Shown here one piece after another: positions 59,076 through 64,000 of a stretch of 64,000 nt of DNA. Below the pieces are notes generated by a model that saw nothing but the letters and a program-made list of their open reading frames with translations, had not been told where the DNA came from and ran no database searches. Where the stretch lies: positions 434,001 to 498,000 of the forward strand of contig MPMM01000002.1 of assembly GCA_002238505.1 (NCBI GenBank). The letters run 5' to 3'. Each line of letters starts with the position of its first letter. The first letter of the stretch is position 1. The translations under genes and the position numbers were made by a program. Source of the stretch: SAR202 cluster bacterium bin22. GTDB taxonomy: Bacteria > Chloroflexota > Dehalococcoidia > Lucifugimonadales > UBA3495.

Positions 59076-61475
59076 CTACTTCAGCACACCCACTATGGTA
59101 TTCACGTTGTACTGCATGTAGTCCAGGTACGTGCCCGCTTCACTTCCGGCCGGTCCCAGCGAACCCGTGTAAAGGCCTCCAACCAACTGGGCGCCCGTCT
59201 CGTCGGCAACTTGCCGGGCCAGCCTGTCTGTCTGGGTCTTCTCGGCAAATACCGCCTTCGCTCCCGATTCCTCAATGGTTTCCACCAGTTCGGCCAGGTC
59301 CCGAGCGCTGGGCTCAATCTCGGTTGTCACCGGCATTATCGCCCCTACTACTTCAAACCCGTAGCGCTGGGCAAAGTACTGGAAGCTGTCATGGGAGGTT
59401 ACCAGCAGCCGCTGGTCCTCGGGCAGCGTGGCTACCTCACCCTGGATCCAGGTATGAAGGTCGTCCAGCTGGCTGTTGTATTCTGCCGCGTTATCCCGGT
59501 AGAAGGTCTGCCCTGCTGGATCTGCGGCGGACAGTCGGGAGGCAATGCTGTTTACCGCCTGCTTCACCCGCAGCGGGTCGAACCAGAAGTGAGGGTCCAG
59601 TTCTCCGTGCCCGTGCTCGTCGCCTTCTTCCTCGTTTCCGTGACCCTCTTCTTCGTGCCCTTCCGTTTCGCCGTGAATTCCCACGAATGCGATTTTGACG
59701 GGTGTGCCGCTCACATCCCAGTGGTTCACCACCTCCAGGTCATGGTCGTCCAGGTGCAGCACCTGCTCACCCACCGAGTCGGTGACAAAGATGGCGCCAG
59801 GAGCCAGGGCAATGTGGGGGCGCCCCCAGAAGTCCGTTACCAGTGGAGTGGTCAGCGCCTCAGCATTGGTTGCGATCACGTCTCCGTCATGAGTGTCGTA
59901 CAGCCGTATTTCGCCATTCTCCAACACAACGACCAGGTTTTCTCCGTCCCGGGACAGGGCTGCCTGGATGGGCTTGGCCCCTTCCGTTGGGGGAATCAGT
60001 TGGTCCATTTCGCCTTCCTCAGGTTCCACCACGAACAGCCCCGCATTGGAGCCCAAGGCAAAGAAGTGGTCGACCCCCGAGGCTCCATAAACCGTAGTCA
60101 GCCGGAAGTCTTCAGGGCTTCCCTCCGGCGCCGCGATGAAGGTGTGGTCGTATTGGCCTTCCTCGGCCGCTAACGCCAGCACCCCGCCGGTGCAGCCAAA
60201 CACTGCCATGTGACCGTTTCCGGCGTCACCTTGCAGGTCAGGGCATCCGTCAGCGGTGTAAAGAACATCGCCCGAGGTATTCCGAATATCTACGGAGGAG
60301 GGCAACCGGTACAGCTGCGGATTCGCAGCATAATTCGGGTGCTGTGCAGTGACCGCAAACAGGTCATCTTCCAGGGGTACTGCTGCCCCTTGTTGCGGAC
60401 CCGCATTAAGGCGTATCGGCTGATAGGCGGCGCCCTCTTCTTCCACTTCGTGCTCGTTAATCAGCAACACGTCCCCGGAGCCGTCGTAGTATATGGTTGA
60501 CCACTCGTCTCCCACATACAGGTGTGACGGATCGTCACCTGCCAGGTCCAGCCCAATCAGCTCAGCTTCCTGGTTTACCAGGTCAAAGTGTCCGTCGTGG
60601 GCTTCCAGGTACAGCCCGCCATCAATTATGTGAGCCGTATTTGCATCGCTGGTAACCGCTATCGCAAAGCGGCCGCTCCTGGTTGCATAAATGCGTCCCG
60701 CACGGCTGCCCAGGTCGTAGGCGTCCTGCTCAACCTCTCCGTGGTCCAGTTCGATTATCGAAAGGGCTCCGGTCTCTCCGTCGCCGATCAGCAGCTTGCC
60801 GAGCAGTGCCGTCATCATTTCTTCTTCGTCATGCTGGTCCTCGAAGATCTCCACGAAGTCTATGGGATCAACTTCGTCGCCAATCTCGATAATGCTTTCC
60901 GGATCCTGGGCGGCGTGCTCCACCAGTTCGGTAAGCCATCCCGCCTCAAGGGACAATCCAACACTCAATACCAGGTCGGCGTCCGCCACCTGGGCTATGT
61001 CCTGTGCCCCCGGCTGGTAGGAGTGTGGGTCGGCCCCTGTCGGCAGTAGCGAGTGTACGTTGACTCTATCCTGACCCACTATTTCAACCCAGTCAGCCAA
61101 AATATTGCTGGTGGTTACGACGTTGACCGCAGGTCCCGCTGCGGGCGGCGCGCTTTCAGTGGCCTGCTGCTGTACGGCAGGTTGTTGTGAAACGGCCTGT
61201 TGCGGGGAAGACTGCTGGTCTGAAACCTGGGGTTGGGAGGTTTGTTGTTCGGCAGGCTGCTCCATTCCAGACTGCCGTACGGCAGGTTGTTCCATTGCAG
61301 CCTGTTGTTCGGCAGGCTGTTCCATTCCAGCCTGCTGTACCGCCGAATCCTGGCTGACGGCAGCTGTTGACCCGTTGGACGGGGCCGGTGCAGGCTCCTC
61401 ACTGCTGCAGGCCACGGCCAGCAGCAGCGCCATCGCCAAAAGGGGAATAAATACTCGCATTGAACCTGATGCCAT
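59076..61475 (-). CDS. Zinc ABC solute-binding protein with inserted AztD-like beta-propeller
   Basis: A 799-residue lipoprotein (lipobox LAVAC, C23) with a Gln/Pro tether containing MEQPAEQQ-type repeats (about 44-110). Residues 117-212 are the first lobe of a ZnuA/TroA metal receptor (PTGADPHSYQP, H151). Residues 218-600 form a beta-propeller resembling the zinc chaperone AztD (SGRFAIAVTSDANTAHIIDG; YVGDEWSTIYYDGSG; LSRDGENLVVVLENG). A His/Glu-rich loop (601-624) leads into the second ZnuA lobe (DPHFWFDP, H629; TSHDSFQYF, H695). The usual fourth-ligand Asp is Gly in YTGSLG. ATG follows AAGGAG. No permease or ATPase is adjacent. Confidence 0.86.
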   Translation of the reverse strand: MASGSMRVFIPLLAMALLLAVACSSEEPAPAPSNGSTAAVSQDSAVQQAGMEQPAEQQAAMEQPAVRQSGMEQPAEQQTSQPQVSDQQSSPQQAVSQQPAVQQQATESAPPAAGPAVNVVTTSNILADWVEIVGQDRVNVHSLLPTGADPHSYQPGAQDIAQVADADLVLSVGLSLEAGWLTELVEHAAQDPESIIEIGDEVDPIDFVEIFEDQHDEEEMMTALLGKLLIGDGETGALSIIELDHGEVEQDAYDLGSRAGRIYATRSGRFAIAVTSDANTAHIIDGGLYLEAHDGHFDLVNQEAELIGLDLAGDDPSHLYVGDEWSTIYYDGSGDVLLINEHEVEEEGAAYQPIRLNAGPQQGAAVPLEDDLFAVTAQHPNYAANPQLYRLPSSVDIRNTSGDVLYTADGCPDLQGDAGNGHMAVFGCTGGVLALAAEEGQYDHTFIAAPEGSPEDFRLTTVYGASGVDHFFALGSNAGLFVVEPEEGEMDQLIPPTEGAKPIQAALSRDGENLVVVLENGEIRLYDTHDGDVIATNAEALTTPLVTDFWGRPHIALAPGAIFVTDSVGEQVLHLDDHDLEVVNHWDVSGTPVKIAFVGIHGETEGHEEEGHGNEEEGDEHGHGELDPHFWFDPLRVKQAVNSIASRLSAADPAGQTFYRDNAAEYNSQLDDLHTWIQGEVATLPEDQRLLVTSHDSFQYFAQRYGFEVVGAIMPVTTEIEPSARDLAELVETIEESGAKAVFAEKTQTDRLARQVADETGAQLVGGLYTGSLGPAGSEAGTYLDYMQYNVNTIVGVLK

Positions 61476-62028
61476 CGATTATCTCCTTGGTGCCAATAGT
61501 TTTAGTTGCCCGGAACCCCTTCAGCAGTTTCTGCTTCCGCCCTCGGAAAGGGGCTCCATAGTGTAATACCATTAATGACCCGGCCTGCCCTGGGCCCGGG
61601 CCAAATGCTTAGCCATAAGGTTTGCAAAGCAACCCTGTATGTTATTAAGACTGAATCTCAATACAGTTGGACACTATAGTTATACCAATTGATACATGGT
61701 TTTGTCAATACATTGTCCCATTATTTCCAGGGCAAGCGCGTCGTTCCCGCCTGCGCGCGAACCTCGAACCTGGAGGCAATAACGGCTGATGCGAAGTGCT
61801 TCATATGCGATAGGCCTCCCATTAATCCCGGGTTCTCCCCTTATGCCCTTCCCGCAAGAAAAACCCCGCCAGGGCTTAATGCGACTGAAAACCAGTTTGC
61901 TTGGGGAAGGCTTCCAGGATTGAGGCTCGTAAAAGGAATATGAAGGCTCAGTAAATTCGAGCGGGAGAGAGGGGCGGGAAGCAGGTCAGGGTGACTGGCC
62001 GGACGCAGGCGTGCCACTAACGGTCCCT
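61476..62028. other. Long non-coding stretch upstream of the zinc receptor
   Basis: Together with 62029-62148 this leaves 673 bases without a supported gene. The part near 61625-61730 is AT-rich and holds the minus-strand promoter (61679-61708). An ACTATAGT palindrome lies at 61673-61680. I do not recognise a riboswitch. No credible ORF. Confidence 0.45.
61679..61708 (-). promoter_or_regulatory. Promoter of the zinc-receptor gene
   Basis: Minus strand: TTGACA (61703-61708), 18-base spacer, TATAAC (61679-61684). The -10 is about 200 bases before the start codon, giving a long leader. A zinc-responsive operator may lie nearby but no known box is recognised. Confidence 0.6.
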
Positions 62029-63703: not shown

Positions 63704-64000
63704 CTACAGCTGCATGGAGGAGGACGATGAGCTGCGGGCCGGCTTTGACTCGCTGGCCGGATGGGTCTCCACCAGCACCCCGGCCAGTTCGGCCACGGCC
63801 TGCTGGTACTCATCCGTATTGCCTGCCTGGCCCGGCAGGTCAAAGAACTTGAAGGTCGTGCTCAACTCCCGGGCAAGCCGGTCCCTGGGCGAATTCAGGT
63901 ACCCTTCGCTGGTCACCAGGAACAGTACCCACTGGTCCCGGCTGTCCTGCGCTTCCCGGGCGGCAATAATGTCATTGCGAAGGGTCTCGCTGGCCACCGC
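63704..64000 (-). CDS. Hypothetical protein, truncated by the window end
   Basis: At least 97 residues of a minus-strand frame open to the window edge; a GTG at 63997 could be internal or the start. It contains DQWVLFLVTSEGYLNSPRDRL, then FFDLPGQ, and ends in a Ser-rich tail (SSSSSSMQL). No family recognised. Upstream gene of the LLM operon. Confidence 0.5.
   Translation of the reverse strand, partial: AVASETLRNDIIAAREAQDSRDQWVLFLVTSEGYLNSPRDRLARELSTTFKFFDLPGQAGNTDEYQQAVAELAGVLVETHPASESKPARSSSSSSMQL

Follow-up and report, generated by a model that had tools for sequence, protein, structure and literature searches.

What is a complete beta-propeller doing in the middle of a zinc receptor? AztC and AztD, the receptor and its zinc chaperone, have been described as separate proteins (PMC6689063, PMC7463823). 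In the DNA analysed here, a stretch of 64,000 nucleotides from SAR202 cluster bacterium bin22 (contig MPMM01000002.1, positions 434,001 to 498,000; hereafter the window), positions 59076-61475 of the minus strand form a single open frame of 799 amino acids with an ATG start. A preliminary description, which gave no strand, had taken this frame for an uninterrupted lipoprotein gene in which two ZnuA/TroA lobes are separated by about 380 AztD-like residues. It had proposed that the insert is an internal zinc chaperone that delivers metal to the receptor site. We asked whether the fusion is real, what the insert is, where exactly it sits and what it may do there.

The open frame, the HMM matches, an AlphaFold2 model and structure alignments all describe the product as a lipoprotein composed of an AztC/ZnuA-type receptor and an inserted AztD-type propeller. 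Its sequence opens with a signal peptide (residues 1-23, 61407-61475, minus strand as for all features below), the lipobox of which ends at Cys23 in the sequence LLLAVAC and is followed by SS. A low-complexity spacer rich in Q, A, S and P lies behind the lipid anchor (residues 24-115, 61131-61406). The N-terminal ZnuA/AztC lobe follows (residues about 116-210, 60846-61130), and after a linker of residues 211-222 (60810-60845) comes the propeller (residues 223-603, 59667-60809). A His/Glu-rich linker, which we read as a remnant of the receptor metal loop (residues 604-623, 59607-59666), leads into the C-terminal lobe (residues 624-799, 59079-59606). A ribosome-binding site, AAGGAG, lies 7 nt ahead of the ATG (61483-61488). 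Further 5' of the gene, a promoter-like TTGACA-N18-TATAAC (61679-61708) was read by eye, having been excluded by the last-T rule of the scan. Elsewhere in the window, positions 63707-64000 hold part of another minus-strand gene, which runs past the window (L111:7708-8988) and appears by eye to encode pentapeptide repeats and then a TIR-like domain.

Both halves of the protein were recognised by profile searches. The Pfam ZnuA family (PF01297) matched in two stretches with an E-value of 7.1e-84 and 281.8 bits, above its gathering cut-off of 29 bits, and the best NCBIfam model was the AztC equivalog NF040870, also in two stretches (E = 4.2e-80). The NCBIfam AztD model (NF038015) matched residues 232-598 with E = 1.8e-25, covering profile positions 3-354 of 356. 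The curated cut-offs of the two NCBIfam models were missed, with 269.2 bits for AztC against 350 and 89.5 bits for AztD against 400; free-standing AztD relatives of Binatia and Acidimicrobiaceae likewise fall under the 400-bit cut-off, at about 100-111 bits. In phmmer comparisons with crystallised AztD chains, the protein matched 6cmk at 5.5e-20 and 6ck1 at 1.2e-18, and the inserted propeller is about 23% identical to Paracoccus denitrificans (Pd) AztD. No ZinT family was found in the protein by the Pfam scan. The absence of an AztD match, which would have refuted the proposed architecture, was therefore not encountered.

If the fusion were an artefact of assembly or gene calling, it should not recur, yet the order N-terminal lobe, propeller, C-terminal lobe within one open frame was found in 42 distinct sequences from independent public assemblies, most of them Chloroflexota with Dehalococcoidia or SAR202-type names. 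The relatives are mostly metagenome bins, which could favour such an artefact, and their isolate names, our only evidence on the point, suggest that these bins come from sponge metagenomes. In four genomes (G016, G034, G044 and G052), however, the fused gene lies on single-contig chromosomes of 3-4 Mb, and in two genomes of the window's genus (L054 and L041) its neighbour is the peptide-transporter operon that also adjoins the window copy. A join in the middle of the gene, whether from assembly or from gene calling, can thus be set aside with near certainty. In one locus (L045:8122-11716) the fused gene occurs as two open frames, one for the N-terminal lobe and one for the propeller and C-terminal lobe, about 1 kb apart, as if sequence had inserted between them.

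The fold of the insert was examined in an AlphaFold2 model of residues 110-799, built from an alignment of 47 rows (mean pLDDT 89.7, pTM 0.62). Nine AztD chains stood at the top of a Foldseek search with this model. By VIA-align, residues 223-603 aligned with AztD 6ck1 over 363 residues (Z 42.6, rmsd 2.4), and the two lobes together aligned with the loop-deleted AztC 5kzj over 268 residues (Z 34.5, rmsd 2.0). As modelled, the insert is an AztD propeller, which has eight blades in the crystals, although the blades of the model were not counted separately; the receptor part has the predicted two-lobe fold of AztC. The low-confidence parts were the linkers 211-222 (disordered in the model, pLDDT below 50) and 604-623, and a short receptor loop at about 716-719, near the Z-loop of AztC. 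At a pTM of 0.62 the placing of propeller and receptor relative to each other is not established, and the distance between their metal sites was not measured. A propeller between two ZnuA lobes is what had been anticipated, and the possibility that no propeller fold would be found can be dismissed at the level of prediction.

The insertion was said to lie exactly where ZnuA has its flexible His-rich loop, and comparison with unfused paralogs bears this out: L002 and L032-L036 carry a His/Asp/Glu-rich tract at the insertion point. The His/Glu-rich sequence noted at the junction (601-624) is also present. The window genome itself encodes an unfused receptor, L002, and the relatives of L002 from the same genus (L072, L040, L038 and L039) are fusions, in which the propeller is embedded in the His-rich loop and bordered on either side by His-rich sequence. 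In two further unfused receptors (L105:9201-11138 and L113:7528-9303) this loop is filled neither by simple repeats nor by a propeller but by long repeats, His-rich and helix-like, which makes three kinds of filler in all. In the published docking model, the AztC loop enters the AztD pore and site 2 of AztD is placed in the AztC cleft (PMC6689063), and zinc transfer depends on the loop and on its three His (PMC6689063, PMC7463823). Hence, a propeller inserted in the His-rich loop has been inserted at the proposed contact point between AztC and AztD.

Two metal sites are known in AztD. Site 1 (His124/His167/His218) lies in the pore and does not transfer, while site 2, close to the chain ends and made up of His99/His102/Asp104/His408, is the only site that transfers zinc (PMC6689063). 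The site 2 hairpin is present in the window copy as His293-x-x-His296-x-Asp298 (60582-60599; Pd His99/His102/Asp104), and it is almost invariant among aligned inserted propellers (His293 in 45/45, His296 in 44/45, Asp298 in 45/45). Its fourth ligand, Pd His408, which is 68% conserved in AztD (PMC6689063), has a possible counterpart nearby in the window copy, His601, and the position is unconserved in the relatives. The AztD disulfide Cys214-Cys231 (PMC6689063) corresponds to Cys411 and Cys428 (60192-60245), both present in all 45 aligned inserts. Of the 45 inserts, 41 have a complete site 1; the exceptions, in which it is missing or changed, are the window copy, L063, L069 and L096. In the window copy His318 (60522-60524; Pd His124) is kept, whereas two of the three His are gone, with CAA-encoded Gln at position 362 (60390-60392; Pd His167) and at position 415 (60231-60233; Pd His218).

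The receptor ligands are likewise conserved. His151 (61023-61025; AztC His61), His629 (59589-59591; AztC His138) and His695 (59391-59393; AztC His204) are invariant in all 43 aligned fused receptors and all 19 unfused ones. At the position of the fourth AztC ligand, Asp279, the window copy has Gly771 (59163-59165). The replacement of this Asp by Gly had been pointed out, and the replacement itself stands; the idea that the metal geometry may differ on account of the insertion does not, since the nearest unfused relatives of the window copy carry the same Gly. The fusion does not explain Gly771, and an Asp-to-Gly change as its outcome is ruled out.

Many fused genes lie in a zinc-uptake context: downstream of them come genes for an ABC ATPase of the metal type and for an ABC-3 permease, as at L038, L040, L042, L043, L050, L051, L057, L069, L072, L074, L075 and L076. 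Eight fused loci have a Fur-family gene upstream, and a CobW/COG0523 gene is found close to the fused gene at five loci; both are typical of AztD neighbourhoods (PMC6689063). At L072 (14376-16858) a CobW-type GTPase gene overlaps a gene for a WD40-repeat protein, and five loci have genes of both families in the vicinity of the fused receptor. Neither the window copy nor the two orthologs from its genus have ATPase or permease genes beside them. The window's own genome does hold a pair of genes for a metal ABC ATPase and a permease with no receptor gene next to it (L108:6613-8357, G000:C4), which we infer to be a possible partner of the window copy, but the proteins of this pair showed no special closeness to those encoded beside fused genes. 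Upstream of fused genes, for example L067 and L050, a palindrome TGATAC-N3-GTATCA was seen. At least 10 of its 12 positions were matched in 18 of 27 upstream regions, compared with 0.23 expected from shuffles. The palindrome was first noticed in two of the upstream regions, and the enrichment test is partly circular, since the palindrome comes from some of the regions tested. It is likely a Fur-family (Zur) operator of these bacteria. The window copy matches at only 9 of 12 positions, and in its genome palindromes with two mismatches stand before the unfused operon and before the receptor-less ATPase-permease pair (G000:C4:78390 and C4:139997).

Taken with the published work on AztC and AztD, these observations can be accommodated in a mechanism, the steps of which are inferred. 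In it, the complete AztD propeller, which interrupts the His-rich D-loop of the AztC/ZnuA-type receptor midway, would capture zinc at its site 2. Zinc would then move to His151, His629 and His695, aided by the His/Glu-rich linkers, and the receptor would deliver it to a permease. Since site 2 lies beside the chain ends in the solved AztD, the two short linkers would hold it near the receptor cleft. The docking geometry must differ from the published one, in which the loop threads the pore, because here the propeller is joined to both loop ends. Transfer from AztD to AztC is association limited, at 575-1330 M^-1 s^-1 (PMC6689063, PMC7463823), and fusion would turn this slow step into an intramolecular one. 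Assuming that linkers 12-20 residues long raise the effective concentration to 1-10 mM, we infer a rate in cis of about 0.6-13 s^-1, far above the rate expected with micromolar free chaperone. A single lipid-anchored chain would also prevent the loss of a soluble chaperone. We consider it reasonably probable that the protein is the lipid-anchored extracellular zinc receptor of an ABC importer and carries its own chaperone, to which zinc is bound before being passed internally. The architecture, the folds, the ligand conservation, the gene context of the relatives and the exchange of propellers rest on the data presented here; that the metal is zinc, that it is transferred internally, that fusion speeds this up and which permease the window copy serves are inferences. 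In the absence of biochemistry, transfer within the chain explains the data best. The suggestion of an internal chaperone is supported by the retention of site 2 and of the three receptor His and by an insertion at the published docking place (PMC6689063, PMC7463823). Counted against it are the lack of conservation of the fourth ligand of site 2 and of AztC Asp279 and, in the window copy, the loss of two site 1 His and the absence of an adjoining ATPase or permease gene.

The main rival holds that the propeller is a tethered zinc sponge, which stores or concentrates zinc near the receptor, while the receptor picks its zinc from solution without any direct handover. The same loop is filled by His/Asp/Glu repeats or long His-rich stretches in the unfused receptors L002, L032-L036, L105 and L113, suggesting that any metal-binding filler may serve there, and 41/45 fused propellers retain site 1, which could serve for storage. 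The best-conserved set of ligands, however, is that of the transfer site, whereas four inserts, that of the window copy included, have lost site 1, and a whole AztD fold would be costly if binding alone were needed. A sponge is thus unlikely in our view, though it deserves to be kept in mind. Propellers often act in protein binding, and some cluster A-I receptors double as adhesins; with many relatives from metagenome-assembled genome sets that look, by name only, sponge-derived, the insert could be mainly a module for adhesion to a host, a matrix or a partner protein, with zinc binding secondary. We hold this to be improbable, given that the metal ligands and the zinc-uptake neighbourhoods are conserved and that the insert lies in the metal loop rather than at a terminus. 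We find it very doubtful, too, that the receptor takes up a different metal, for instance manganese, for which the propeller would have been co-opted. MntC was the second-best NCBIfam model (5.9e-76) and Asp279 is replaced by Gly, but AztC was the best model and the partner AztD is zinc specific. Three His ligands and a His-rich loop form a zinc signature (PMC7463823), and manganese receptors, judging from the titles of structure entries, use Glu and Asp (PsaA Glu205/Asp280), which also counts against manganese. Internal loading with zinc remains the reading that we prefer.

How the propeller came to lie in the receptor was examined with separate trees of the two parts. In the propeller data, the fused L002 relatives L013, L040, L017 and L072 fall together with L008 and the window copy, whereas in the receptor data the same four group with the unfused L002. 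The AU test rejected the receptor grouping for the propeller data (p = 7e-100) and the propeller grouping for the receptor data (p = 1e-6). It also rejected a larger receptor-defined group for the propeller data (p = 6e-29) and a single clade of all main fused propellers (p = 0.0017). The log-likelihood gaps were large, from 130 to 405; the p values are optimistic because the groups were named after the trees had been seen. A single insertion followed by vertical descent is unsupported by these tests, although the tests did not exclude a weaker version confined to L001, L008 and L009 (p = 0.09). The free-standing AztDs from Binatia and Acidimicrobiaceae fall among the fused propellers, and the propeller of L103, on a long branch, groups with free-standing ones of Poribacteria and possibly represents a separate insertion. 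The relatives indicate that propellers have been exchanged between receptors; given the strong conflict between the two trees, the propeller behaves as an exchangeable cassette. On its simplest reading, the conflict would mean that the propeller was swapped between receptors by recombination, perhaps helped, as we infer, by the flanking His-rich repeats, and was also released as separate genes. We lean, if only slightly, towards the broader view that the receptor metal loop is an exchange site for an AztD cassette, which moved between receptor types, was kept beside or replaced by His-rich tracts and became free-standing again in other phyla.

The same propeller type was seen in other settings. 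A Candidatus Binatia protein of 931 aa (L046:9203-11995) has it flanked by about 270 and 290 residues without a Pfam match, possibly another beta-propeller or strand-repeat host, which would make a propeller nested in a propeller and a second cassette host. Poribacteria AztD-like proteins (L082:9818-12178, L083, L084 and L086) have an additional C-terminal part of about 330 residues that ends in a secretion-type tail, and at L082-L084 a separate receptor gene lies upstream.

Among known systems, the closest is AztABCD of P. denitrificans, which shares both folds, the site 2 HxxHxD motif, the disulfide Cys, the three receptor His and the loop as meeting point. On Paracoccus plasmids, adjacent separate AztD and AztC genes match the two parts of the window chain. 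The P. denitrificans AztC and AztD are two proteins, whereas the window protein has AztD inside the D-loop of AztC, Gly in place of Asp279 and an incomplete site 1, and Pd His408 is not kept in its relatives. The free-standing AztDs of Candidatus Binatia (L065, L068) and Acidimicrobiaceae (L071) are 49-55% identical to the inserted propeller, but they are secreted proteins of their own, that of L068 being encoded next to a separate receptor gene. ZnuA is a two-lobe cluster A-I receptor with a charged His-rich loop at the same position; its loop is a disordered tract, while here it is a folded propeller of 380 residues. AdcA, too, couples a ZnuA-type zinc receptor to an accessory domain that binds zinc (a precedent cited in PMC6689063), but that domain has the ZinT fold and is appended at the C-terminus rather than placed in the metal loop. 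In the literature searched, from which most subscription journals were out of scope, no description of an AztD fusion or of an AztD-ZnuA architecture was found. To judge from this literature, the fusion is an undescribed arrangement of the known partners AztC and AztD, with ZinT in AdcA as its nearest precedent.

The handover from AztD to AztC is among the few direct protein-to-protein zinc transfers that have been studied; its complex is transient and its docking has only been modelled. A natural chain in which donor and acceptor are covalently linked where they are proposed to meet would let the docking model be tested, and receptors with and without the propeller inside one genus provide natural pairs. 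Unlike the end-to-end fusion of ZinT in AdcA, insertion is the route by which a metallochaperone has here been built into a receptor. If the cassette reading is true, a receptor gains a built-in metal loader as a module.
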